Below the pieces are notes generated by a model that was not told the DNA's origin, did no database searches, and was given only the letters and a program-made list of their open reading frames with translations. This document shows, in pieces, positions 8,400-37,190 of a DNA stretch of 49,643 bases. Both the position numbers and the translations under genes were made by a program. The stretch is from positions 1 to 49,643 of the forward strand of contig JAPOXY010000100.1 of assembly GCA_026706845.1 (NCBI GenBank). Reading direction: 5' to 3'. Each line of letters begins with the position of its first letter. The first letter of the stretch is position 1. This DNA is from Gemmatimonadota bacterium (lineage in GTDB: Bacteria > Latescibacterota > UBA2968).

Positions 8400-8981
8400 T
8401 CAGCCTGCCCAACCTCCGACCTCTTGCTTTTCCAGTGCGCGTTTTAGCTGATGGCGCCCGCGGTGGAGCCAGATTTTTACGGTGCCGAGGGGTGCTTGCA
8501 TTTCCCATACGATTTCGCGGTAGGACAGTTCTTTTATGTAGCGAAGCCACATTGCGCGTTGTTGTGCTTTGGGCAATGTGCGCAAGCCCTGTGTTAAGCG
8601 TTGATGGCGTTCTTTTTGTATAATGCTATCTTCTGGCGTTGTCAGAGTGATTGGTTCGGGCATGTGTTGCGCTGCTGTTTCCAGGCCGTTTTTTCGGGAT
8701 AGCCGGGATCGTAGGTGTGACCGCCCGACGTTGATGGCAATGCGCGTCAGATAGGTTGTGAATGCCGATTCGCCGCGAAAATGGCGCAGGCTCTGAAAGA
8801 CTTTCATGAATACCACCTGGATCAAGTCATCGGCTTCCTCGCGGTCCTGCACATATCGCCCGACAATGGCGCGCACGCGATTCTGGTGTAGATGGTAGAG
8901 TTTGCCAAACGCGCTTTTGTCGCCGGCTTTGATCATGTGGATCAATTGCACATCGTTTTCTATTTCTGATCGTTTATTCAT
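8400..8981 (-). CDS. ECF-type RNA polymerase sigma factor
   Basis: 193-residue sigma-70 factor with only regions 2 and 4. Region 2 covers about residues 20-95, with FGKLY, the DDLIQVVFMKVF -10 recognition helix and the FRGESAFTTYLTRIAINV segment. Region 4 covers about 130-185, with LPKAQQRAMWLRYIKELSYREI followed by the helix-turn-helix GTVKIWLHRGRHQLK. The ATG overlaps the stop of the upstream permease by eight bases (TATGAATAA). A perfect GGAGG lies nine bases before it, inside the permease codons for its conserved C-terminus, so translation should be coupled. No anti-sigma gene is adjacent. Its position inside the exporter array suggests it controls this array or its stress response (inference). 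Confidence 0.93.
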   Translation of the reverse strand: MNKRSEIENDVQLIHMIKAGDKSAFGKLYHLHQNRVRAIVGRYVQDREEADDLIQVVFMKVFQSLRHFRGESAFTTYLTRIAINVGRSHLRSRLSRKNGLETAAQHMPEPITLTTPEDSIIQKERHQRLTQGLRTLPKAQQRAMWLRYIKELSYREIVWEMQAPLGTVKIWLHRGRHQLKRALEKQEVGGWAG

Positions 8982-11325
8982 ATCGCAATGCCTCCACGGG
9001 GTTCATTTTTGCCGCTTTCACGGCTTGCAGGCTCACTGTTCCGATTACGACAAGGAGGGTCAATACACCGCCCAGCGCGAATGCCCCAATGCCCAACTCA
9101 ATCCGATACGCGAAGTCCGATAGCCATTTGCTCATTGCCCAATAGGCGACTGGCCAGGCGAATACATTTGCTATGCCTACCAGCAGTACGAATTCGCGCG
9201 ATAGCAAACGCACCACATTTGTGACGCTGGCGCCCAATATTTTGCGAATGCCGATTTCTTTGGTGCGCCGGGTCACGGCGAGTGCTGTCAATCCAAATGC
9301 GCCCAGGCACGCGATAAAAATGGCAAACAGGGTTCCGTATCCGATCATGCGATGCCAGCGCTCTTCGGTTCGGTATTGGCGATCGATGCCTTCGTCGAGA
9401 AATGAATAGCGGAATCCAGGGGATTGTGTTACGGCTTCCCATTGCGCTTTCATGAATGTCAGTGTGCCGGGGATATCTTCGGCACGCACTCGAACCAGCA
9501 ATCGGTTAAATTGATGTTCCGGGTTGCATTTCAGGAGTGCGGGACCAATTTTGTGGTGGAGAGAGCGAAAATGAAAATCGTTTACTACGCCGATTACTGT
9601 CATATCATCAAAAAATTTCAGTGTTTTTCCGAGCGGTGGTCCCGGCCCCAATTGTCGGGCCAGCGTTTCATTGATGATCACAGACTTAGCAGGGTCTGTT
9701 GCAAGTTCTCGTGAATAATTTCGTCCTTCGATCAATTTGATGTCGAGGGTTGGTACAAAGTCGTAATCGACGAAGAAGACCTCCACGCCTTTTAAGGTTG
9801 TTCCTTCATGTACCACAGCCCCGCGCGACTGGTATCCATTGCGCATCATGTGATATATTTGGGTCACGCCGAGAATTGCATGATGGGGTAAGAGGGCGTC
9901 CCGATAGGTTTCAATGCCTTTTGGTCCCAGGCCTCGCAGTTTGCTGAGGCGACTGACGGCAATCAGGTGTTCGCTGTCAAATCCCAGGGGTTTGGTCCGC
10001 AAATAGTCGAGTTGAGAGGTCATAATGAGGGCACTGATGACCAGGACCGCAGACATCGCGATCTGGAAGACCACGAGAAACTGGCTGAAAAGTCCCGCGC
10101 TGACAATTTTCAATCTGCCTTTGAGTACGTGGATTGGCATAAAGCCGGACAGGACAAAGGCTGGATAGGTACCTGCGAGCAGGCCGACAATTAGAGTTAG
10201 ACCCATTAGCGAGGCAAATGCCAGACCATCCAGATGTGCAACTATGGATAGTTTTTGCGCCATGAGGTTGTTGAACAATGGCATTAAAAGTTCTGATAGT
10301 GCGAGTCCGATTACAAATGCTATGAGGCTTATGAGTACGGATTCTGTGAGGAATTGCACGATGATCTGGGGCTTGTGTGCGCCAACGACTTTGCGGATGC
10401 CGATTTCCCGCGCCCGAGAAGCCGACCGTCCCAGGGCGAGGGTCATAAAGTTCACGCAGGCGACAAAGAGTACCAGGGCTGTAATGCACAACAGGATGTA
10501 GCTGTATGCCGGGTCAGTGGCGGGTTCAGGTGCGCGGATATTTGGGCTGAAATGCACATCGGCAAGGGGCTGCAATTTCAACTCCTGGTTTTCCCCCGTG
10601 ATGGGCCACGACCAGTTTAGAAAACGCGGAAATAATTTTTCTATGTCTTCGGCGCGAACCTGATTGTGGAGTAAGACGTAGGTACTGGTGCTACCTGTGT
10701 AGTTCCATGTGTTGAGCGCGTCTTCGACATTCTCATAGGACTGGATGCAGTCGAATTGAATGCTGGATGTTTCGGGGAGGTCTTTCACGATGCCCGTAAT
10801 CAGAGCCTGATGTATTTTTGAGTTTCTTGTGAAAGAGATCGATTTCCCCATTGGGTCGATGTTGCCGAAGAATTTTTGAGCGGCTGTTTCTGATATGATA
10901 ATGGTATCTTTGCGGTCCAGTGCTGTTGCGGGGTCGCCTTTTATTAGAGGAAATGAGAATACATCCCAGAAACCCGGATCGACATAAATAACGCGTTCTC
11001 GAGATGCATGGTCGTCGTATTGGAGTGTGCGAGAGGTGTTATCGATTCTGACGACGTGTTGCATTTGTGTGGGGAATGCTTCTGCCAATGCAGGAGCAAG
11101 AGGACCAGGCATATAAGCCGAGGCATCGCTTTCTCCTTTGGTGTAAACGCGATAAATTCGATCTGCTTTTTCGTGGAATGCGTCAAAGGACCATTCGTGT
11201 CGCACATACAAGAAGGTCAAGATGCAAAACGCAATGCCGATTGCCAGGCCAGTAATGTTAATCGCCGAATACACTTTGTAACGGACGAGGTTGCGGTACG
11301 CTACGGTCAGGTAATTGCGGAACAT
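8974..11325 (-). CDS. MacB/FtsX-type ABC transporter permease
   Basis: 783-residue permease of the second subfamily in the array (N-terminus MFRNYLTVAYRNLVRYKVYS, shared with the gene at 12706). First membrane segment near residues 22-41, FtsX motifs REIGIRKVVGAHK near the middle and KEIGIRKILGAS near the C-terminus, ending in NPVEALRYE. The start follows AAGGAGAACAAA-ATG. The stop overlaps the ECF sigma start. It is separated from the upstream TlpA-like gene by about 80 bases. Substrate not predictable from sequence alone. Confidence 0.93.
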   Translation of the reverse strand: MFRNYLTVAYRNLVRYKVYSAINITGLAIGIAFCILTFLYVRHEWSFDAFHEKADRIYRVYTKGESDASAYMPGPLAPALAEAFPTQMQHVVRIDNTSRTLQYDDHASRERVIYVDPGFWDVFSFPLIKGDPATALDRKDTIIISETAAQKFFGNIDPMGKSISFTRNSKIHQALITGIVKDLPETSSIQFDCIQSYENVEDALNTWNYTGSTSTYVLLHNQVRAEDIEKLFPRFLNWSWPITGENQELKLQPLADVHFSPNIRAPEPATDPAYSYILLCITALVLFVACVNFMTLALGRSASRAREIGIRKVVGAHKPQIIVQFLTESVLISLIAFVIGLALSELLMPLFNNLMAQKLSIVAHLDGLAFASLMGLTLIVGLLAGTYPAFVLSGFMPIHVLKGRLKIVSAGLFSQFLVVFQIAMSAVLVISALIMTSQLDYLRTKPLGFDSEHLIAVSRLSKLRGLGPKGIETYRDALLPHHAILGVTQIYHMMRNGYQSRGAVVHEGTTLKGVEVFFVDYDFVPTLDIKLIEGRNYSRELATDPAKSVIINETLARQLGPGPPLGKTLKFFDDMTVIGVVNDFHFRSLHHKIGPALLKCNPEHQFNRLLVRVRAEDIPGTLTFMKAQWEAVTQSPGFRYSFLDEGIDRQYRTEERWHRMIGYGTLFAIFIACLGAFGLTALAVTRRTKEIGIRKILGASVTNVVRLLSREFVLLVGIANVFAWPVAYWAMSKWLSDFAYRIELGIGAFALGGVLTLLVVIGTVSLQAVKAAKMNPVEALRYE

Positions 11326-26188: not shown

Positions 26189-26245
26189 ATTCTCCAGATA
26201 GTGTCTGGAGAATTTCGCTGATTTTTCAGACGTTGTCTGAAAAAT
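26189..26245. terminator. Two adjacent perfect hairpins between HEPN and hypothetical genes
   Basis: ATTCTCCAGA/TCTGGAGAAT (10 bp, loop 5) at 26189-26213 and ATTTTTCAGAC/GTCTGAAAAAT (11 bp, loop 3) at 26221-26245. They follow the stop of the HEPN gene (minus strand). Neither has a long T run outside the stem, but the second carries A/T at the stem base, so terminator action in either direction is plausible. Confidence 0.6.
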
Positions 26246-26265
26246 TTGCCTAATAGAGCAGGATA

Positions 26266-26676
26266 TCAGGCATCTTCGAGATTCAACTTTGTCCTCAAAG
26301 TGCGTCGAACACGCCGCATAACTTTAACCGCATCTTTTGACTCTTCAACAGTGGCGGTTTCTCCGGGATAGCGAAATTCAACGGCAAATGGGGATAGGAA
26401 ATTCAGATCATCTCGAAGTATCTCGAGTTCGGTGTCAATATCTACAGCGAAATCTAACAGTGCCAAAAGATCGTGAATTTTTGGAAAATGAATGCGATGT
26501 AGAACCAGAAAGGCTTTGAGATACTTTTCTATACACTGCTGCGCGCAAAAACACACATTGTCGGGAACAGGTTCTTTGCGTTTCCGAACCATTGTCGTAG
26601 CGGTGCGAAAGTCTTCTTCTGCTTTATAGACCCACGCTTGTATATCACCCGGCGGATTTGTAGAGGATGCGTCCAA
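26266..26676 (-). CDS. HEPN-domain toxin-like protein (HepT type)
   Basis: About 136 residues. The HEPN fold is indicated by DIQAWVYKAEEDFRTA, CFCAQQCIEKYLKAFLVLH and the RX6H motif RIHFPKIHDL (R61 to H68), the RNase-type signature of HepT-like toxins. No ATG is available near the domain. The start is taken as TTG at 26676 behind GAGGAAA, giving a 32-base overlap with the MNT gene; a much longer ATG frame from 26799 would run antiparallel in logic to the MNT domain and is not favoured. It works with the MNT protein at 26645: HEPN is the toxin and MNT the antitoxin in known pairs. Confidence 0.85.
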   Translation of the reverse strand: MDASSTNPPGDIQAWVYKAEEDFRTATTMVRKRKEPVPDNVCFCAQQCIEKYLKAFLVLHRIHFPKIHDLLALLDFAVDIDTELEILRDDLNFLSPFAVEFRYPGETATVEESKDAVKVMRRVRRTLRTKLNLEDA

Positions 26677-26983
26677 GTTTGAAAATTTCCTCGAGAAAGG
26701 GATCAAAATTTTGCAGATGGGTTTGAATTTCTTCAGGTGTACGCACGACAATATCCATTGCAACGTATTTGGGACGACAAATGCGAGCAATTGCGGCACT
26801 TCGCGCTGTTGGACGCAAATCTGTATCCATAATGACGAGCAAATCTAAATCGCTATCGGTCTTTGGCTCGCCATAAGCCTGAGAGCCAAAGAGGATAATC
26901 TGATCTGGATGAAAGTGTTCGACAATTTTGTTTGCGATCTCATCCAAAAGCGATTCTGTAATTTTTTGTTCTTTCACATTCAT
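26645..26983 (-). CDS. MNT-type minimal nucleotidyltransferase (antitoxin of HEPN pair)
   Basis: 112-residue minimal nucleotidyltransferase. Motif G33-S34 followed by D45-x-D47 (FGSQAYGEPKTDSDLDLLV) and a later acidic position (VAMDIVVRT) form the metal site. In characterised HEPN/MNT modules such a protein inactivates the HEPN toxin by AMP transfer. Gene order MNT then HEPN with overlap is the standard arrangement. Confidence 0.92.
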   Translation of the reverse strand: MNVKEQKITESLLDEIANKIVEHFHPDQIILFGSQAYGEPKTDSDLDLLVIMDTDLRPTARSAAIARICRPKYVAMDIVVRTPEEIQTHLQNFDPFLEEIFKLGRILYKSAG

Positions 26984-27326
26984 ACCTTGAGTATTTCCTA
27001 AAACGCGCTGTCGAACTGGGCGAATTGCCCATCCGCTTTTTGCGTATAATGATAAATGCCTATTTGCAATTTACTTGAAAAAACAGGGACTTGCAATGAC
27101 GTTTTTGCGTATAACGATAATTATATGCAAAATTCAATCCCTTCAAAATGTCTCAATGCGGAAAGCCAAAAGCGTGATCCTACCCCGAGCCTATTCACAA
27201 ATTCCTCGTCCTAAAACGCATTTGCACACTTTCGCGTAGTGCCTGTATATTGATGGTATAACTGAACAGGTGCGTGAATAACGTAGTTAGCGGACAGCCA
27301 CACAATACTGGCAAAGGATTCTCCTG
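26984..27326. other. Divergent intergenic region with direct repeats
   Basis: No gene seen. It contains a 19-base direct repeat, TTTTTGCGTATAA(T/C)GATAA, at 27037-27055 and 27102-27120, 65 bases apart with one mismatch; each copy is followed within 15 bases by TTGCAA or TATGCAA. It lies upstream of both the MNT gene (minus) and the nucleotidyltransferase gene at 27327 (plus), so the repeats may be operators for either. Confidence 0.55.
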
Positions 27327-28145
27327 ATGCTCGATATAGTCAATCTCCCTGAGCACAGACGCGTTTTTGACAGTCTATTGCGACACTTCCGGGACATAGA
27401 CGAAGTCATCGGCATCTTCGTCAGCGGAAGTCAAGCTACCGGAGAGATGGACGAGCAATCCGACCTTGATTTAGGGGTTGTTTTTGATTCCCAAAAAATC
27501 CGAGATGCTGTCTGGTCTAAAAGGTGGAATTGGGCGACCGAACCGTGGTTCCACCGATTTGATGCAGATCACATCAAGGAGTATTTCGTTATCTATCTTT
27601 TCGAGCCGTGCGTCAAGGCAGACATCAATCTGTACATAGAGGAGGACTTGCCAGGTTGGAAGGGAGGGCCCTTTCATCTTATCTGGACGAAGTCAGACAG
27701 GCTTGAAGAATGGTGTCAAGTTTCGAATGATAAGGTACGCCGCGAGAACAGGCCGACTCCCAGTGAAGAAGTGTTGATCCATGAAGACGAACGTCTCTGG
27801 GCTTGGCTTGTGTATGTTGTTTTGCACACGAAGCGTGGTGAGTACTATTCCGCAGCCTGGTCGTTTGCCGATCTACGCAACATCGTGGAGAAATGGCATG
27901 CATATCTACAGGGAGAACACAAATTCACGCCCAGGCAGTTCGAGCAGCGGATGCCATCGCACCTAACTGGCCGATTTGCGACTCTATTCCCTCAGCCAAC
28001 ACGAAATTCACTCAAGAAGGCTTACTATAACCTGGCGGAACTACATGAGGAGCAGCGCAGAGAAATCGGTTCACGACTTGGATTGACCTGGAAGATAAGC
28101 GAGTATGGTATATGTAGGGTCAAGGATATGATTGGCGAAATATAG
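27327..28145 (+). CDS. Nucleotidyltransferase-domain protein
   Basis: 272 residues. The N-terminal nucleotidyltransferase motif is complete: G34-S35 and D46-x-D48 in VSGSQATGEMDEQSDLDLG, with a later acidic residue in a CVKADINLYIEED strand. The C-terminal half is helical, as in aminoglycoside/lincosamide nucleotidyltransferase-like proteins. AAAGGATTCTCCTG-ATG gives the start. Its stop touches the reading frame of the ART-like gene at 28187, so the two form a unit. It could be an antibiotic-modifying enzyme, or the antitoxin half of a toxin-antitoxin pair (inference from its neighbour). Confidence 0.85.
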   Translation: MLDIVNLPEHRRVFDSLLRHFRDIDEVIGIFVSGSQATGEMDEQSDLDLGVVFDSQKIRDAVWSKRWNWATEPWFHRFDADHIKEYFVIYLFEPCVKADINLYIEEDLPGWKGGPFHLIWTKSDRLEEWCQVSNDKVRRENRPTPSEEVLIHEDERLWAWLVYVVLHTKRGEYYSAAWSFADLRNIVEKWHAYLQGEHKFTPRQFEQRMPSHLTGRFATLFPQPTRNSLKKAYYNLAELHEEQRREIGSRLGLTWKISEYGICRVKDMIGEI

Positions 28146-28186
28146 TGTGGCCGTCCGCTTGCTTTTTTGAAAAGTTTGGGTTACTG

Positions 28187-28606
28187 ATGCCAGATTGCGA
28201 CTACAGTCTTACGTGGTACCATGGCTCTCAGCAAAAGCTGACGAAACTTCGTATCGGTAGTTCGATCACACAATACAGAAATGTGGCGAAGGCGTTCTCT
28301 CACCGTCCTTCTCTTATCTCTTTGTCTGACGAAGGTGAGTCTCTATCTGACAAGCTCAGGCTGAAGCATAACGGCGTCACGCCAGGTTATCTCTATGTTG
28401 TTTCAGATGAGATTGATCCTGATGATGTGTATCCGCATCCCCATCCGGCAAATGTCGGTCGCTGGGAGTGGCTGACTAACCGGGAATTGAAACTGGAACT
28501 CATCGAACAGACTATCGTAACAGACAGTGAACGGCTGACAGACGAAGATATCGCCGAGATAAGGCGGAAACAGAAGGAAAGGGGCGAGGAGTCATTCGCG
28601 GAGTGA
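28187..28606 (+). CDS. Putative small ADP-ribosyltransferase-like (Arr-type) protein
   Basis: 139 residues from the ATG at 28187; an in-frame GTG at 28145 would abut the preceding stop. The layout recalls rifampin ADP-ribosyltransferase (Arr) and related ART folds: N-terminal WYHGSQQKL, then RIGSSIT, a central GYLYVVSDEI strand, a YPHPHPAN segment and WEWLTNREL. The conserved His of YHGS would bind NAD. Family assignment rests on pattern only. If correct, the target could be an antibiotic or a cellular macromolecule. The last 30 residues are charged and helical. Confidence 0.6.
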   Translation: MPDCDYSLTWYHGSQQKLTKLRIGSSITQYRNVAKAFSHRPSLISLSDEGESLSDKLRLKHNGVTPGYLYVVSDEIDPDDVYPHPHPANVGRWEWLTNRELKLELIEQTIVTDSERLTDEDIAEIRRKQKERGEESFAE

Positions 28607-28669
28607 TCTGTTTGAAAAAGCGCGCAACAAAAAGTAGGTGCAATGTTCTGCATATTCAGCATGACAAAT

Positions 28670-28705
28670 AAAAAAGCCGCTTCCCAGTTTAAGAAGCGGC
28701 TTTAA
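28670..28705. terminator. Bidirectional terminator
   Basis: Eleven-base stem AAAGCCGCTTC/GAAGCGGCTTT with A-run on one side and TTTAATTT on the other. It separates the ART-like gene (plus) from the convergent nucleotidyltransferase gene (minus). Confidence 0.85.
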
Positions 28706-28724
28706 TTTATCTATCACATTTAGT

Positions 28725-29558
28725 TCAGGGCGCAGGTCGTCTCACTGTCTCTTCAAAGTAAGTTGTCTCTGGATTGTCAATCCAATCGCCAACCCAACCC
28801 AGTTCTTTCAGTCCGCTTTGAACAATTGGCAATGTCGCCCGCAATTCTTTCACGGGTATCCAGTCACGCCAGTTGCGGTCGGCCGGTGGGGCGAGAAATT
28901 CTCTCATGCCGCCTACTGCCCGTTGAATCGATGGATATACCATCGCGCCCAGTTGTGTTTGTTTGGCTGCTTCAACCAGCCATTTGTCGTAGGGAAACGG
29001 CTGTCTGTCAGCAACGCAGCACATTTTGCAGAGGTGTTCGATGACGTTTCCAACCGCAACAAACGCTGTTTCCACCTTATTTCGAGCTGCCATAGCCAGT
29101 GGACCGCGCTGCGAGTAATGATACTTGCCGAATATCCACTTCAACTTGCTCTCCGCGACCGCTGGCGGATACAGGGAATAGCGATGTTTCAGCTCTTCAG
29201 CGATATTTGAACTACCGTAGAGGGTTCGCGAGGTGGCAATCACCCACATCATCTCATCCGGGTATGTTTCCAACCACGCCCGCAGGTCATCTTCATCGTA
29301 AAACGACCAGTGGGCTTCGTAGTCGCCTCTATCGACGAAGAGTTGCCCGCTTCGTTCATAAGTCCTCCGATCTTCACCGGAAAGGTGCCGCTTATCGCCA
29401 ATGATACAAAGGTCGAGGTCTGACCATTCATCGGCAAAGTTAGCGGCGCGACTCCCAATCAACATGAGGACAGGGCGTTCACCCATTCGTTGGCAAGAAT
29501 CTATGGCTCGATTGATGAACTGTTGATCTTCTGGACTGAAACGAATCTTTTCTCTCAT
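28725..29558 (-). CDS. Nucleotidyltransferase-domain protein with helical C-terminal domain
   Basis: 277 residues from the ATG at 29558, which has GGAG nine bases upstream; a TTG at 29588 is also in frame. The nucleotidyltransferase motif is G35-S36 with D47-x-D49 (GSRAANFADEWSDLDLC). The C-terminal half (SKLKWIFGKYHYSQRGPLAMAARNKVETAFVAVG and onward) is helical and resembles the substrate-binding halves of aminoglycoside 6-adenylyltransferase-like proteins. Stand-alone gene. An antibiotic-modifying role is possible but unproven. Confidence 0.85.
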   Translation of the reverse strand: MREKIRFSPEDQQFINRAIDSCQRMGERPVLMLIGSRAANFADEWSDLDLCIIGDKRHLSGEDRRTYERSGQLFVDRGDYEAHWSFYDEDDLRAWLETYPDEMMWVIATSRTLYGSSNIAEELKHRYSLYPPAVAESKLKWIFGKYHYSQRGPLAMAARNKVETAFVAVGNVIEHLCKMCCVADRQPFPYDKWLVEAAKQTQLGAMVYPSIQRAVGGMREFLAPPADRNWRDWIPVKELRATLPIVQSGLKELGWVGDWIDNPETTYFEETVRRPAP

Positions 29559-29599
29559 TGCAGACATCTCCGGGACGGTCGTTGTCAAGGTTATTCATA

Positions 29600-29646
29600 T
29601 TAGACTGCACGGATGAAAATTGTACGTCGCGGTGTCTTGTATATTG
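29600..29646 (+). repeat. Dispersed 45-bp direct repeat, copy B
   Basis: TTAGAC-N11-AAATTGTACGTCGCGGTGTCTTGTATATTG. Most similar to copy C at 37783, with the last 28 bases identical except one. It lies just upstream of the HTH gene at 29709. The final TTGTAT can serve as a -35 hexamer, with TATTAT at 29662-29667 as a -10 at a long spacing. Confidence 0.7.
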
Positions 29647-29708
29647 AAGTTTTCTTTTTGATATTATACGGCAATGCCGTATGTTTTATTTTCGTGAGGA
29701 GATTGAAA

Positions 29709-29981
29709 ATGAATGAAAAGAATAGAAATATCGGTCAAGAGATTCTATCTGGCCTACAGGAAATTAAGCGCGGCGAACACGGTCGTATTATCGCAGTGCC
29801 TGACATTGCCCAAACGAGAGCGAAAGTAGGTCTTTCTCAGGCTCAGTTTGCCCAATTGATGGGTGTATCTGTTCGCACACTGCAAGATTGGGAGCAGGGC
29901 CGCCGTCGTCCATCGGGAGCAGCCCGGACACTATTGATAATCGCAGACAAAAACCCTCAAGCGATATTGGATGTGATGTAA
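29709..29981 (+). CDS. HTH (XRE) antitoxin-like regulator, orphan
   Basis: 90 residues. The helix-turn-helix is at residues 38-65 (TRAKVGLSQAQFAQLMGVSV followed by RTLQDWEQGRRRPSG), the pattern of HigA/NadS-type antitoxin regulators. The ATG at 29709 is preferred over an upstream in-frame start at 29613 because GAGGAG lies nine bases before it and the upstream part reads as repeat DNA. Such regulators normally follow a RelE/HigB toxin gene; none is present here, so this is an orphan antitoxin or a remnant of a broken pair. Confidence 0.85.
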   Translation: MNEKNRNIGQEILSGLQEIKRGEHGRIIAVPDIAQTRAKVGLSQAQFAQLMGVSVRTLQDWEQGRRRPSGAARTLLIIADKNPQAILDVM

Positions 29982-30019
29982 AACCTGTAACCTGAAATCT
30001 GGAATAGAATTGAAAAATA

Positions 30020-30047
30020 AACGCCCTGCTCAAGCAAGCAGGGCGTT
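30020..30047 (-). terminator. Terminator of the HEAT-like gene
   Basis: Eleven-base stem AACGCCCTGCT/AGCAGGGCGTT with loop CAAGCA. On the minus strand it is followed by TATTTTTC, so it ends the gene at 30076; it may also work for the convergent HTH gene. Confidence 0.75.
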
Positions 30048-30075
30048 GACGTAATTAGAGCAGAATTGATCGCGT

Positions 30076-30570
30076 CTATTCCCCAAGGTCGTCAATGACG
30101 TCAGAAATATAATCTCGCAGCCACGATTCTGGATCAGAATGCGATTTCAGAACTGGCAGAATGTCACTATCACCCCACAATTCCGCTGCTTGAACTGCGG
30201 CATCTCTAATCTCCACATCATCCAAAGCCAACGCATCGCGCACGAGTTCGGAACGCCATGAGCTTGTTCCTAAATGTTCTTGACACCCAAGGCAACGCAG
30301 AACAGACGCCGCGAAGACCGGTTGTGCGGTATCTAAGGAGAAATCTCTCAGCCACTCGAGAATTCGCGCGTCTTCCCCGGATTGTAATGTCTGTTCTATA
30401 ATGTCCTCAGCCTTATGGTGCATACCGTCCTCAAGAGGCTCGGTTTCAAAGGCTACGTGCAATTTGTTTGCAAGTCGCACTTGTTCGCGCTCCTCATCCC
30501 GATCCGGTTTGAAACGAAACTCACAGACTGCTTCCTCAATAGGTGGATTACTGTAGAGACGTTGCACCAT
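30076..30570 (-). CDS. HEAT-like protein with short TIGR04255-like N-terminus
   Basis: 164 residues. The first 20 (LYSNPPIEEAVCEFRF) look like the start of TIGR04255-family proteins, which are usually 230-270 residues. From about residue 50 onward it is instead a set of HEAT-like helical pairs (DARILEWLRDFS, VFAASVLRCLGC, VEIRDAAVQAAELWGD). It may be a chimera made by an internal deletion that joined two neighbouring genes. GGAGAGAATCTA-ATG gives the start. Function unknown; HEAT repeats usually bind proteins. Confidence 0.7.
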   Translation of the reverse strand: MVQRLYSNPPIEEAVCEFRFKPDRDEEREQVRLANKLHVAFETEPLEDGMHHKAEDIIEQTLQSGEDARILEWLRDFSLDTAQPVFAASVLRCLGCQEHLGTSSWRSELVRDALALDDVEIRDAAVQAAELWGDSDILPVLKSHSDPESWLRDYISDVIDDLGE

Positions 30571-30783
30571 TAGATTCTCTCCGTAAATAGTACACCGCTT
30601 GTCCTTCTTTTTTGGACTGACAATTTGATGTTAAAAAACAGACCGTGACCTATTCGTCAATGACTAAAGGTTGGCACCCGAGCAACCGGAGAATGAAGGA
30701 TAAAAGGTATTTTGTGACTTTTGTTAGATACCAAAATACTGAGCAAGATGCTGAGTCTTTCCAGCAGAATCCTACCTTTAGGA

Positions 30784-31755
30784 CTATGATTGCTGATATA
30801 CTCTCAAAATCTCCTCTTTTGAAAATCGAACAATGTCTTCTTCACGTATTATAGGATTTATCTCACTGCTCAGAATACTTTGAGATGGTTGCCATGGTGC
30901 TTCAAAATACGACTTATCCTGAGGGTAAAAAAACTTAACAGATTCGGCGTCTGTACCGTTCGCTACTTTGAGAAATGCAAGTATATTATTTAGGGAAATG
31001 GATATTAGATTCAAGCCATGTACAAGACATTTTGGGTCCCAATTCAGTGCAGGTTTTTTGAGCCTAAAGTGTGTTGGATTTCGTTTGTCTATCTCATCTC
31101 CAATTCCTTCGGACACAAAAAAAGATGAACCAAAATCGCTACCTCCGAGATAGGACATTTTCTCTGGTGGAGCAGGCACCCCGGGTATATCCTCGGGGCC
31201 AACCCAAAAACTAGAGCCACCTGGTCTCACCCGGAATCCATGCTTTATATTGTTGTATTCGGCAATTAGCTTATCATCCAGAAAATCTTTTGCAAATCGA
31301 TACCATAAGGTTGTAAACGATTCTTTAAGTTGCTGCTCTTTATCTTCATCTTGAAGGTTAAAATCGTTTATCAAATTTGATAGTTCCTCCAACGTAACGG
31401 ATTGAAGATTGAGTTTACAGAAAATCGGAGTTTGGTAGTTGATAATTTTTTTTACCAAGTCCCTCAACTGCTTTAAGGTATACTTTTGAAGCCAACCCAT
31501 AATACAGTCTGGAGCTTGAATACACGCACAAAGTAATGCAAATAGTGTTTCAAGACCATGACAATAGGCTATTCTTATGGCTATAGCCGCATACTGAGCC
31601 CCATCACCTTGCAGAGATCCTTTATTAATTGCTGCAATATATTCATAATAGGTAGGGTCAATTCCTTCGATGAATTCAAGATTCGTTCTCCTTATTTCTG
31701 GATCCCAGACACAGTAAGGAATATCTAACACAGCGAATCTACTATTTTCTATCAT
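30784..31755 (-). CDS. Unknown protein with HEPN-like features, partner of the 1242-residue nuclease protein
   Basis: 323 residues. Helical N-terminal half with AIAIRIAYCHGLETLFALLCACIQAP (55-81) and a motif AEYNNIKHGFRVRPGG (165-180) whose N-x2-KH arrangement resembles HEPN-type helices of defence proteins. The C-terminal third is a mix of strands with several FF/WVG turns. The start ATG overlaps the stop of the large upstream gene as ATGA, so the two proteins are translationally coupled and probably act together. I do not recognise the family. A/T-rich with codon use unlike the catabolic genes, suggesting transfer. Confidence 0.75.
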   Translation of the reverse strand: MIENSRFAVLDIPYCVWDPEIRRTNLEFIEGIDPTYYEYIAAINKGSLQGDGAQYAAIAIRIAYCHGLETLFALLCACIQAPDCIMGWLQKYTLKQLRDLVKKIINYQTPIFCKLNLQSVTLEELSNLINDFNLQDEDKEQQLKESFTTLWYRFAKDFLDDKLIAEYNNIKHGFRVRPGGSSFWVGPEDIPGVPAPPEKMSYLGGSDFGSSFFVSEGIGDEIDKRNPTHFRLKKPALNWDPKCLVHGLNLISISLNNILAFLKVANGTDAESVKFFYPQDKSYFEAPWQPSQSILSSEINPIIREEDIVRFSKEEILRVYQQS

Positions 31756-34700
31756 TTTAATACCTTTCCTTTTGCTGTGGAATTGAGCAACTTTAGCGGG
31801 CCTATCTTGTCGGCCTCAATGGGCAATGAAGTTAAGTACGTCATCGGCACATCGACATTGGTTACAAGTCTGTCATCGATATTAGATGGATCTGGTAAGA
31901 ATCCGACGATATGTTGGAGACATGCAGCATTTGCTCTAATCCATTCGACACGTTTTACATGCTTGCCTAACTCATCCTTTGCTTCCCCACGAAAACGGCG
32001 ACAAATTTCGGCAAACTCAGCAACAGTTCGGGCCAATTGCAGACGCTTACACTCAACGATCTGTATTTCTCCGCTTGGCTTCCACGCTAAGACATCTACA
32101 TCACCGAGTTTATCAGAAGCACCTAATTCGGTCATTTGTACCTCATTACGGGTATGCCATCCTTTTTCGCACAGCTTATTAGCAACAGACTGAGCAAAGG
32201 CGTGCCCTTTTTCGTCGTTTACCATTCCAACATATTGTTTCATCTCTGTTGAGGTGAAGAATTCTTGCGGTAGGTGCCCCTCGTCAATCCTACCCAATAG
32301 ATTAAGGATACTTTGTTTTAGTGTACCAATTCCAAAAAGCACCTTATCATTGTTTTGCTTTCCAAAAACAAACAAGGGTTTCGCTGTTACAGAAAGTCTG
32401 CGTTTGAAGCGCCAAGGGTAAATATCTTTCCCCGTAAAACCCGATGGAGGTTTATCCCATTGAGGGCGATGAAAAATTCCGAAAGAGCGGACAAATGCTT
32501 CGCTTGCATCTACTGATAAGCCTCTGTTCGAAGTCAGTCTGGCTTTGATATCACCAAGCGTTGTTTCGACGATTACACTGTCGTATTCAACAGCAAGGTC
32601 CATGAGTTTTGAAATTCCTTCTACCGCTTCGTCCAGAGACAAACCGAACTCGACACGGGATGCATGAATTAATTCTGAAGAAAATATTTCGTCAGGTCTC
32701 TTTCGCTCATCATAAGATTCGTTTTCATATAACTCGCGGTATTCTTGTACAGCCGTTTTAAATCCTTTCGAAAAATGAGATTCCAAGAATGGTTTGATAA
32801 CGGTACTTTGGAACTCATGGTCAATAGTGTACTCACCATTTGGGTGCAATTCGATTCGGGGTGTAACTAGATCATTTTTGACGGCATCCGAGACCCTTGC
32901 AACTTCGAGTAATAGCGTCACTTTGGCTAATAGTTCGTCCAGTTTCCAGCGTGAAAGCTGACGACCACCTGTTTTAGGACACTCACAAATAGCCATTTCT
33001 ATGATTGTACGGGCTGATATTGCAGTATTGACTCGATCCGCTTCCCGACCTCGTGATATGGCAATAACATCTTCCTCTGATGCGTGAAGCGCCTGTACTG
33101 CCTGCGCGGTACGACGCCAGTGTTCACGGTCATAAATAATGGCTTCATGTACTCGGAGTGCTTCACGTATCACTGATGCTCGATCAAGTTGTTTCAACTG
33201 GCTGCGTATTTGGCTCCAAATTTTATCTACAACTTTGTGCAAAAATTCATTGCATTCAACTTTCGAATTGATCTCCCCAATTGTCGTTGCTGATGTGCAT
33301 CCTTCGGACAGCTTCAACTTGGAAAAAGCAAAATCCTCTTGAGCTATGAATATTGGAGCTTGGTTTTGTTTTGCTTTTAGTTGTTCAATAGGATCTATAG
33401 GAAAGGCATGGAGAATCCGCATACCTGGATCACTGATCACTTTGTTTAATAAAGCTTCCAGTATGTCCTTATCAACATTCTTATTTGTATCTTGATGTAG
33501 ACTGATAAGACCTTTCGCGATGCTTCTCAGGACTATCCGCTCACCAGTATTCTCAGGTTGCTGAAAATACTGAAGGAAATCAGGAGGTAACTTGACCACA
33601 GCGGTTCGCTGTTTATTTTGAATGGTAACTTCAAATTCGTTGACTTTCGTGTCTATTTGAGGTTTCATATTTTTCTCAACTATAAGTATGCCATCTACAT
33701 CAATTACGTCATCTGCATTGAGTTTAATTTCTACCGGACCGAATGGGGCATCTGGGTAGAGGGACTCAATCTCGGATACGAGCCTGTCATACAGACCGAT
33801 GAATCCCTCCCATATATCATAAAGGAAGCGAGGGAATTTTTCGTCACTCTCGCGTATCATGACTAGCCAACTGGGGCCACGCGCCGTTTCCACAGTCCCC
33901 GCAAATATGCCTGAACTCAGATGGATCAGGCTCGCATAAATTGGACGGTCACACACGGATTTGAAGTATGAGTTACTAAAAAATCGTACTACGGGTACGT
34001 AGATCCCGTCTGTTGTCTTAAGGACATGTCGATCTACAAGATTTCGGACTTCCTGTCGGGCGACCAAAATCCAATCGTTTTCAATGATAAGCATAGAGGG
34101 GGAATCTATAGCTAAATCATGAGGCACAATTTGGTAGTTCGATTGACGCCAGTAGCTAAAAGAATTCAAGTCGCCGCTCATGTCTTGAATAGTGACTCCT
34201 TCCTTATCTACCCATGTCCTCTGTTTGATATATTTGAGGTAGCGTGTGATCGGTTGATCGGGCAGGTGGCCTAGCATGAGAAGGTTGGATATACTAATAG
34301 CCGATAGATGCCATTGATCCGGACACTCATCAAAGCCCAGAGCGAAGCCGCGGCCGAGTCCCCCCATTATCAAAAGTGTCATTCCTTCATTAAAATCTGG
34401 TAATGACATGCAGTAAGAGGCGGTTTTAGATATATAATCATTAAGACCCGTCATCAATTCTTGCGGATATGTCATGAAACCGGATAAATCATAGGGTTTC
34501 AACGAATCTAAACGGTCATGGACAAGCACGACATGAAGGTACTTGTTGACATCATATTTGAGCAGCCAAGCATGAAGTGGTGGAGTCTTTCTATCGAATT
34601 CGGGTAGCTTGAGAGAGAAAACATCTTGCTCCAGTTGCTTGAACACCTCTCCTTCGACTTGTTTGGCTTGATAAGTGGCCAACGCACGAGAGAAGGCCGA

Positions 34701-35480
34701 CAAGTAACCCCTTCGCCGCAACTCAGAGAGAATGAACGTCCTAATTGCTGGGCTAACCGCGTTAGGTAAAGCCAAAACCACTTTATCGCCAAAGTCTATA
34801 AGGGGGCGTTTCTCAAGGGAAGATTTTCCGATTGTCTCAGTTTTGAGGGCCTGCCTATCTTCATATCGCAGAATAAAGGGTGCCAACAGGTGACGTTTGA
34901 TCCCCATTGCATTAAGTTCGCTATCTGAGAAGATTACCGCTTGGGCCCGTTCCGCCCTGTCACTCACACAGGCGACTCCGATTTTATCCTTCGCGGTCGA
35001 AGGTGCGTTATGCCATCTCCGTAAACCGACACGCTCAGCGACACTATCGCTCAATTTTAGCAATGCAAAAGCAGGGCTTAGAAGATTTCGACACTCCTGC
35101 AGAGCAAGATGGATACTTAGGATATTGATAGCTGCTTGAACAAAGTAGTCACTTGATTCCCATATTCCTTGGAATATGCGCCGATTGCCCTCATGCGTCT
35201 CGACATTGGTGATAAAGACATCCTCCACAGGGTCTTCGTATATTGCGATCCTGTTGCCGAGATATTGATTTAGCCAGTGGTCTATCTCGGCTAACTTGAG
35301 ATTTCGAGAGCCTTCGCAGTTCGCTACAGTCAGGTGAATGGCTGTTTCTATCCGGAGTGTATTCGCATGCAAAGAGGGGACGGTGAGTAAGCCGGCGAGT
35401 TGTGTAACTGAAGACTGTAGGTCGTGTTTTTCAAAAAACTTCGCAAACCGCCTAAAATCAGAAAAATTAATTGACACCAT
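31752..35480 (-). CDS. Large unknown protein with C-terminal PD-(D/E)XK nuclease motif
   Basis: 1242 residues, no signal peptide or membrane segment. The C-terminal 150 or so residues show a restriction-endonuclease fold signature: helix GHAFAQSVANKLCEKGWHT, then strand pair D1127-V-D1129 ... E1143-C-K1145 (GDVDVLAWK, QIVECKRL), followed by a helix with conserved polar residues. This is a PD-(D/E)XK active site of Mrr/NERD type. The 1100 preceding residues are unrecognised: helical blocks with a beta-rich middle (about 480-620), no Walker A or helicase motif. AAAGG lies eight bases before the ATG. It overlaps the 323-residue partner gene. A defence role is inferred from the nuclease plus context. 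Confidence 0.85.
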   Translation of the reverse strand: MVSINFSDFRRFAKFFEKHDLQSSVTQLAGLLTVPSLHANTLRIETAIHLTVANCEGSRNLKLAEIDHWLNQYLGNRIAIYEDPVEDVFITNVETHEGNRRIFQGIWESSDYFVQAAINILSIHLALQECRNLLSPAFALLKLSDSVAERVGLRRWHNAPSTAKDKIGVACVSDRAERAQAVIFSDSELNAMGIKRHLLAPFILRYEDRQALKTETIGKSSLEKRPLIDFGDKVVLALPNAVSPAIRTFILSELRRRGYLSAFSRALATYQAKQVEGEVFKQLEQDVFSLKLPEFDRKTPPLHAWLLKYDVNKYLHVVLVHDRLDSLKPYDLSGFMTYPQELMTGLNDYISKTASYCMSLPDFNEGMTLLIMGGLGRGFALGFDECPDQWHLSAISISNLLMLGHLPDQPITRYLKYIKQRTWVDKEGVTIQDMSGDLNSFSYWRQSNYQIVPHDLAIDSPSMLIIENDWILVARQEVRNLVDRHVLKTTDGIYVPVVRFFSNSYFKSVCDRPIYASLIHLSSGIFAGTVETARGPSWLVMIRESDEKFPRFLYDIWEGFIGLYDRLVSEIESLYPDAPFGPVEIKLNADDVIDVDGILIVEKNMKPQIDTKVNEFEVTIQNKQRTAVVKLPPDFLQYFQQPENTGERIVLRSIAKGLISLHQDTNKNVDKDILEALLNKVISDPGMRILHAFPIDPIEQLKAKQNQAPIFIAQEDFAFSKLKLSEGCTSATTIGEINSKVECNEFLHKVVDKIWSQIRSQLKQLDRASVIREALRVHEAIIYDREHWRRTAQAVQALHASEEDVIAISRGREADRVNTAISARTIIEMAICECPKTGGRQLSRWKLDELLAKVTLLLEVARVSDAVKNDLVTPRIELHPNGEYTIDHEFQSTVIKPFLESHFSKGFKTAVQEYRELYENESYDERKRPDEIFSSELIHASRVEFGLSLDEAVEGISKLMDLAVEYDSVIVETTLGDIKARLTSNRGLSVDASEAFVRSFGIFHRPQWDKPPSGFTGKDIYPWRFKRRLSVTAKPLFVFGKQNNDKVLFGIGTLKQSILNLLGRIDEGHLPQEFFTSTEMKQYVGMVNDEKGHAFAQSVANKLCEKGWHTRNEVQMTELGASDKLGDVDVLAWKPSGEIQIVECKRLQLARTVAEFAEICRRFRGEAKDELGKHVKRVEWIRANAACLQHIVGFLPDPSNIDDRLVTNVDVPMTYLTSLPIEADKIGPLKLLNSTAKGKVLK

Positions 35481-35792
35481 AAACGAAACCTTTCTCAGAA
35501 ACTTTATGTTTGTAAAGTTTTATAATGATAGAACGGTATATTTCAAATCTATGGATGAGTAACTGAATCTGCTTTTGACATCGTGTGCAGATCGTACTTA
35601 AGCAAAGCAACGTAGCACTTCTGTTCCCAGGCGGCTACAGACCCGGCTTGCCATTGCAGCAGAGTTTCTGTCATAAATTAAATTAGATGTGTCATTCCGC
35701 CCTATGGATTTGACTGTTGACCTGATCCCCGATATTCTTATATTCAGACATCTTTCATCAGGGTTACCGGACGTTCCGGTGACTTCTACAGA

Positions 35793-35823
35793 CCTCGGCA
35801 GTGCCAGCTGCCGAGGTTTTTCT
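35793..35823 (+). terminator. Rho-independent terminator, plus strand
   Basis: Nine-base perfect stem CCTCGGCAG/CTGCCGAGG, loop TGCCAG, followed by TTTTTCTTT. No plus-strand gene lies directly upstream, so it may end an unrecognised transcript or be left from a lost gene. Confidence 0.8.
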
Positions 35824-35837
35824 TTGCTAAAAAAGAC

Positions 35838-35871
35838 CAAAAAGCCCCATCAAGAATTATCCGAAGGGGCT
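35838..35871 (-). terminator. Possible terminator, minus strand
   Basis: Stem AGCCCC/GGGGCT with a 17-base loop; on the minus strand TTTTTGG follows. Weaker than the plus-strand terminator beside it. Confidence 0.5.
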
Positions 35872-36112
35872 GACCTCACGTAGATATATACCTTCGGGTC
35901 GGAGCGTAAAAACAGGGGAGATTTGGTAGGGGAGAGAGCTACGAGAAACAGCACCGAGGGGGAGAGCCCAGAGGGGGATTGCACAGGTGGTAATATACAC
36001 AGTTTTTTCTAAGAGTCAAGCAACTTCAAAACCCTCAGTAGTCATCTTGGCTCAATGCCGTTGTAGGCTGGGTATGGATCCGATTTCTCATCTTTACCTC
36101 AGGCATGACCTC

Positions 36113-36140
36113 TTGACAAAATATAACGAGTTTGTTATAT
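36113..36140 (+). promoter_or_regulatory. Sigma-70 promoter with embedded operator palindrome
   Basis: TTGACA at 36113-36118, a 16-base spacer, and TTATAT at 36135-36140. The palindrome TATAAC-GAGTTT-GTTATA (36122-36139) covers the spacer and the -10 box, the expected place for a repressor. Autoregulation by the HTH protein encoded at 36205 is likely, as for HigA-type antitoxins. Confidence 0.75.
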
Positions 36141-36204
36141 GCGAAAATTGAAATTATTCTGAACACGTTGCAGGGAGGATGAAATAATCCTCATAGGAGG
36201 GAAA

Positions 36205-36489
36205 ATGCTCAGTCATAAAGAATTGATCGCAACAATGCGGTCCCAACCTGGATATAAAGAAAAGTATGATGAGGCAGCACCTGAGTTTGAGTTGCTACAC
36301 AAGATGCTTGAAGCGCGAAAACGCGCTGGTATGACTCAAGAGCAAGTCGCTGAGAAGATGGGCACGAAGGCAACAGCGATCACTCGCTTAGAGTCTGCCA
36401 ATAGCCGACATTCCCCCAAAGTAGAGACGTTGCGAAAATATGCAGAGGCCGTAGGCTGTCGGCTCAACATTGAGTTGATCCCCGGTTGA
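36205..36489 (+). CDS. HTH (XRE) antitoxin-like regulator, orphan
   Basis: 94 residues with a helix-turn-helix at about 38-68 (KRAGMTQEQVAEKMGTKATA, ITRLESANSRHSPKV) and the C-terminal LRKYAEAVGCRLNIELIP typical of HigA-like antitoxins of phage-type HigB pairs. AGGAGGGAAA-ATG gives the start. In such pairs a short RelE-fold toxin gene should lie immediately upstream; here only intergenic DNA is present, so the toxin is missing. Likely a DNA-binding repressor of its own promoter. Confidence 0.9.
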   Translation: MLSHKELIATMRSQPGYKEKYDEAAPEFELLHKMLEARKRAGMTQEQVAEKMGTKATAITRLESANSRHSPKVETLRKYAEAVGCRLNIELIPG

Positions 36490-36551
36490 CGGGAGGGTAT
36501 CGATTAAATAAAAAAGAACGGGTAGAGAATTATAATATTCTTTACCCGTTT

Positions 36552-36704
36552 TCCTTTTGTCCTCAAAGTGTGTCGAAACGCCGATTTATAGACTCACACT
36601 TGTATATTATCCGGCGGATTTTTAGAGGGGATGTCCGTGCCGAATTGACTTCTCTTGAACCGCTCCCTGGGATCGTCAGGTGGAAAGCGTTCAGGGAGAT
36701 TCAT
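36552..36704 (-). pseudogene. Wrecked HEPN gene next to MNT gene
   Basis: From the ATG at 36704 a frame reads MNLPERFPPDDPRERFKRSQ, a typical HEPN N-terminus, then switches to the sequence NPPDNIQV and a TGA stop where the intact HEPN gene at 26266 has NPPGDIQAW. After the stop it continues VYK and jumps to RHTLRTK, matching the C-terminus RRTLRTK of that gene. DNA blocks at 36557-36585 and 36588-36640 match the 3' and 5' ends of 26266-26676, with about 330 bases deleted between. So the toxin is inactive: start-side fusion, nonsense codon and large internal deletion. Confidence 0.85.
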
Positions 36705-37005
36705 AGACCACCTTTCCTTCCCGCAGCGCGGGCTTGATGACCAGCGCGTGGCTGTCCTTGTAGCGCTCGACGGCTTGGGGCGTGACGACGAAGGCATCGA
36801 CGGCAGCACCTACCCCGTAAAGATTCCGGCGAATCTGCCGCATCAGGTCAAGCGTGTCCACGCCCTCCTTGACGATGAGCAGATCAAAGTCGCTATGGCG
36901 GTTCATGTCGCCTCGAGCGGCAGAGCCAAAAAGGATGATTCTCTGTGGATCAGCCACTTCCACAATTCGACGGACGATATTATCCAACGTCGTTTGATCT
37001 AACAT
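36691..37005 (-). CDS. MNT-type minimal nucleotidyltransferase, antitoxin without toxin
   Basis: 104 residues with an intact nucleotidyltransferase motif: G27-S28 and D39-x-D41 (FGSAARGDMNRHSDFDLLIV), plus the AAVDAFVVTP strand with the third acidic residue. It overlaps the HEPN remnant by 14 bases. It is only distantly related to the MNT protein at 26645. With its partner gene broken it may survive as a free antitoxin or a solitary enzyme. The GC-richer composition differs from the A/T-rich genes to its left. Confidence 0.92.
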   Translation of the reverse strand: MLDQTTLDNIVRRIVEVADPQRIILFGSAARGDMNRHSDFDLLIVKEGVDTLDLMRQIRRNLYGVGAAVDAFVVTPQAVERYKDSHALVIKPALREGKVVYESP

Positions 37006-37106
37006 TGTACTACCTTTTTAATCGGTTCCGAATATTTATGAACCAAATAGGCATATCTAATAAACATAAAAGAGAGAACAAAACAAGCCAAATACGGAGA
37101 ATTCTG

Positions 37107-37190
37107 GTTTAGACCCTCTAATTTAGACGGTCAGGTTTAGACGGTCAGGTTTAGACGGTCAGATTTAGACGGTCAGATTTTGACCCTCAG
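37107..37190. repeat. Six-unit 14-bp tandem repeat
   Basis: Unit (G/A)TTTAGACGGTCAG repeated head to tail six times: units 2-5 are exact apart from the first base; units 1 and 6 are degenerate with CCCTC in place of CGGTC. The array runs to the stop codon of the phosphatase gene at 37187. The 14-base period means it is not a coding repeat. No spacers, so not a CRISPR. Confidence 0.9.

Follow-up and report, generated by a model that had tools for sequence, protein, structure and literature searches.

Our analyses revealed a known kind of defense gene in a distant version, a relative of the anti-phage protein Upx, together with an unnamed partner that is coupled to it here, a coupling that is not conserved elsewhere. 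In the reading that we favor, and in which we place considerable confidence, the pair represents a horizontally acquired, distant Upx-type nuclease (P0001) with a lineage-specific, translationally coupled accessory (P0002). An earlier note on the window, that is, on the whole stretch of 49,643 nucleotides analyzed, had put the pair forward as a candidate defense unit; the nuclease core, the coupling of the two genes, and the defense-type setting that it described held up, whereas the undescribed status did not, conserved pairing was not seen at the other loci compared, and a HEPN identity of the partner is unsupported. By analogy with Upx, we infer an anti-phage role for the pair.

Both open reading frames and the ATGA overlap between them were recovered as the note had reported them (Table 1), with the second ATG, that of P0002, directly preceded by a purine-rich, AGGAAAGG-like ribosome site. 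Since relatives of both proteins exist in other phyla, neither frame is a product of chance. The pair is also A/T-rich relative to its surroundings, another of the note's observations, with a GC content of 0.40–0.46 vs ~0.48–0.55 on the flanking DNA on either side.

Table 1. Coordinates in the window of the gene pair, its motifs, and the site that holds it.
Feature	Position	Strand	Basis
Variable site with the pair and other toxin-antitoxin-like genes	26216..37139		Flanks syntenic, ~91–96% identical in congeners without the pair
P0001, Upx-family protein, 1242 aa, C-terminal PD-(D/E)XK nuclease domain	31752..35480	-	Profile and PDB matches
Core G1126-D-V-D1129 ... E1143-C-K1145 of P0001	32046..32105	-	8-protein alignment; 9wuf
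P0002, partner protein, 323 aa, unnamed family, start within ATGA overlap	30784..31755	-	Relatives in other phyla
RX4H-like R61...H66 of P0002	31558..31575	-	R61 invariant; H66 in 4/6 members, Q in 2/6
NxIKHGxR motif of P0002, residues 168–175	31231..31254	-	In 6/6 aligned members
Strong inverted repeat, 13-pair stem, possible terminator, 5' of the Upx gene	35790..35819		Pattern match only
Terminator-like hairpin, 12-pair stem, first strong one 3' of the pair on its strand	30020..30047	-	Pattern match only

P0001 looks unknown at first sight because Pfam and PHROGs return zero matches for it. The PADLOC (2023) model PDLC02221 for Upx, in contrast, aligns residues 16–1218 of P0001 with positions 44–1252 of 1271 (E 3.7e-172), and the NCBIfam model NF042954, "anti-phage protein Upx," aligns residues 17–1216 with positions 27–1223 of 1240 at 617.6 bits. 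Because this score lies below the model's equivalog cut-off of 1900 bits, we file P0001 as a distant member of the Upx family and not as an equivalog; Upx relatives from Planctomycetota, from the same order, and from Bosea and Deinococcus likewise score below 1900 bits on the NCBIfam model (other relatives, 36–893). A PDB search with P0001 matched 9wuf_A, a protein of 1272 aa deposited under the name "Restriction endonuclease," over residues 18–1185 (E 5e-114), with the catalytic motifs in register, although the two sequences are distant. A Salmonella relative, when used to search the PDB, proved identical to 9wuf over all of its 844 residues, and this fragment scores 1483 bits on the NCBIfam Upx model; 9wuf can hence be taken as a structure of Upx, and P0001 as its full-length distant relative. 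As judged from these alignments, P0001 is related along its full length, though distantly, to an already described anti-phage protein of ~1250 aa, and it is only ~19–29% identical to the aligned Upx proteins. A description of the 9wuf entry was not found in the literature searched; CMoRE (PMC12923530), considered as its source, was ruled out as a different, GIY-YIG enzyme. E. coli genomes searched with the Salmonella Upx DNA yielded no near matches.

P0001 and Upx have in common a GD(I/V)D...ECK core at the C-terminus. The GDVD...ECK of P0001, in which GDVD ends at D1129 and both E1143 and K1145 lie within VECK, aligns with GDID...ECK of 9wuf, and G1126, D1129, E1143, and K1145 do not vary among the eight aligned Upx homologues, which bears out the nuclease core and the numbering of E1143 and K1145 given previously. 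A PWxxxRRLS-like stretch upstream of the core is conserved in the same alignment. The residue pattern fits a metal-dependent PD-(D/E)XK nuclease. Upx, credited to Gao et al. 2020 in PMC10855318, is listed there under nucleic acid degradation, and it occurs almost only in one defense hotspot of Pseudomonas PAGI-1 islands (PMC12629846). Given this classification and location, phage DNA is the probable substrate of P0001, by analogy.

How might such a unit operate? We propose that the large N-terminal part of P0001, ~1,000 residues of unassigned fold class, would recognize some sign of infection or the invading DNA itself, or load onto that DNA, and that the PD-(D/E)XK domain (D1129, E1143, K1145) would cut nucleic acid (most likely phage DNA) with no ATPase involved. 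Coupled via the ATGA overlap, P0002 would be made from the same message at a matched dose. It would most likely be an accessory specific to this lineage, or else a second small effector that joined the operon, and the unit as a whole would be cargo that a genomic hotspot acquired horizontally. Cleavage of DNA by P0001 and a joint function with P0002 are thus presumed, and the activity and trigger of P0001 may differ from those of Upx, given the missed cut-off and the low identity.

The genomic context is consistent with such a history. In four congeneric genomes (G012, G016, G017, and G020) both flanks of the site, that is, the window up to ~26.2 kb and from ~37.1 kb, are present in the same order and mostly 91–96% identical, and the Upx pair is absent. 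G012 shows a clean join, with window position 28711 connected to 37140 by only 9 bases. Other pieces of the cargo are found in G017 and G020, namely the HEPN gene and the HTH gene, joined in G020 by the HEAT gene. In a further genome, G018, only the 3' end of the P0002 gene is left (the last 41 codons, ~90% DNA identity over 144 bp), within a cargo array of the same order on a contig without these flanks. No Upx was found in other genomes of the genus. The absence of the pair from congeners with intact flanks supports its horizontal gain and loss, as read from these sequence comparisons. Such gain and loss is usual for defense genes, and the distribution of Upx is similarly patchy and horizontally acquired. 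Tandem 14-bp repeats of the TTTAGACGGTCAGG type occupy window positions 37103–37186 on the right-hand border of the variable site, and a shorter array of 14-bp repeats is found at the empty site of G012; it is possible that this array serves as a recombination point.

As the earlier note had recognized, the pair lies among toxin-antitoxin-like genes. It is surrounded by a HEPN gene identified by Pfam (26266–26799), nucleotidyltransferases (27327, 28725), and HTH proteins of the Xre/MqsA-like kind (29613, 36205). An NTP_transf_2 nucleotidyltransferase with a weak match to the MntA antitoxin, followed directly by a coupled 153-aa frame without a family match (window 27327–28606), is probably a toxin-antitoxin pair of the MNT-HEPN type. 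Short stretches at 36556–36628 repeat parts of the HEPN gene with 89–95% identity and are perhaps what is left of a second HEPN copy at the opposite end of the site. The HEAT-repeat-like gene at 30076–30570, a weak Pfam match that G020 has at this site in the absence of Upx, begins with residues weakly like the start of TIGR04255 proteins. Beside the P0002 remnant of G018 (locus L024), an ATPase-like protein whose C-terminus holds a nuclease-like core, GRTD...IECK (9683–11257), and an RmuC-like gene (8582–9304) possibly represent other defense cargo.

P0002 returned no match in Pfam, PADLOC, NCBIfam, or the PDB, also when a profile of six relatives was used, and only weak matches in PHROGs (E 0.04–0.1) to families of unknown function. 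Relatives with 31–45% identity occur in Armatimonadota (L013), Planctomycetota (L014 and L016), Chloroflexota (L015), and on a plasmid of Deinococcus radiophilus (L007), and 392 Planctomycetota genomes contained two more clear relatives and one fragment. Conserved in the family are E69, FAL, QAP, an E.N.IKHG.R motif, and GG, and by this measure P0002 is a member of a genuine, unnamed protein family. In Deinococcus the relative stands behind an MmeI-like (type IIL-like) methyltransferase. The relative from Armatimonadota is surrounded by SIR2-like, two DUF4238, and Schlafen AlbA_2 genes in what looks like a defense island (L013, 906–12523). The remaining relatives are mostly solitary in appearance. 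Viral contigs scanned with P0001, P0002, and both alignments held no relatives, and a phage collection gave no match to either protein.

Is the partner a HEPN protein, as had been suggested from its N-x2-KH helix? That motif, N168-x2-K171-H172, does occur and six relatives conserve it, but it is distinct from the RX4-6H motif of HEPN proteins. A likeness to HEPN proteins (Pfam PF05168 and relatives) lies in an RX4H in four of six family members and in the conserved KH motif with its helical-looking context; against it, the histidine of RX4H varies and none of the six members has any Pfam match, HEPN profiles included, up to E 5, while the same library calls the neighboring gene at 26266–26799 HEPN at 1e-22. 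An AlphaFold2 model of P0002 from five sequences had a mean pLDDT of 37 and was unusable. The HEPN assignment is left unsupported by these results.

Nor does the idea of a conserved gene pair survive comparison with other genomes. No Upx gene adjoins any of the P0002 relatives, four of whose genomes (L013–L016) contain no Upx anywhere, and the other Upx loci examined have no adjoining P0002-like gene, in a census of fewer than ~10 loci per side, some of them ended by contig or record ends. Loci L023 and L010 gave weak HMM matches to P0002 (E 0.1–0.4), which were dismissed as chance. With each family present where the other is missing, the loci compared show no conserved pairing, and P0002 is most likely not a required subunit of Upx.

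This separation bears on two other readings of P0002. One may consider an obligate two-component variant of Upx, in which the nuclease needs P0002 as a sensor, an antitoxin-like inhibitor, or a second RNase effector. The ATGA overlap and P0002's own ribosome site, its conservation across phyla, and its relatives near the methyltransferase in Deinococcus and among the SIR2 and DUF4238 genes in Armatimonadota all speak for it, and so strict an overlap may reflect a functional need for P0002 in this lineage. In view of the independent occurrence of the two families, however, we consider such an obligate variant unlikely, and it is equally doubtful that a member of an undescribed NxIKHGxR family, also found near other defense genes, works with the Upx nuclease in a two-gene variant, as its coupled regulator or as a second effector. 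Somewhat more plausible, though still short of an even chance, is that P0002 belongs to an independent, undescribed defense or toxin family that was inserted behind Upx by chance in a gene-swapping hotspot. The mostly solitary relatives in unrelated phyla, the exchange of cargo between species at this site, and the congeneric genome that retains only the last 41 codons of P0002 speak for such an insertion; a start codon within an ATGA overlap, however, exceeds what random insertion usually gives, and of the P0002 loci inspected just two have clear defense neighbors.

The proposal of a wholly undescribed defense system, to which the failure of either protein to match Pfam lends some appeal, is highly improbable. 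For P0001 it is already refuted by the full-length matches to the named Upx in PADLOC, NCBIfam, and the PDB, an outcome that the earlier note had itself named in advance as counting against its claim. We therefore retain the distant Upx-type nuclease with a lineage-specific accessory as the best explanation; it differs from other Upx loci examined in the coupled second gene.

With P0001 the Upx family gains a low-identity member from another bacterial lineage, and its comparison with other members shows which residues are fixed, a help in interpreting the solved structure 9wuf. P0002 defines an unnamed family, with members in four or more other phyla, that could be tested as a defense accessory.
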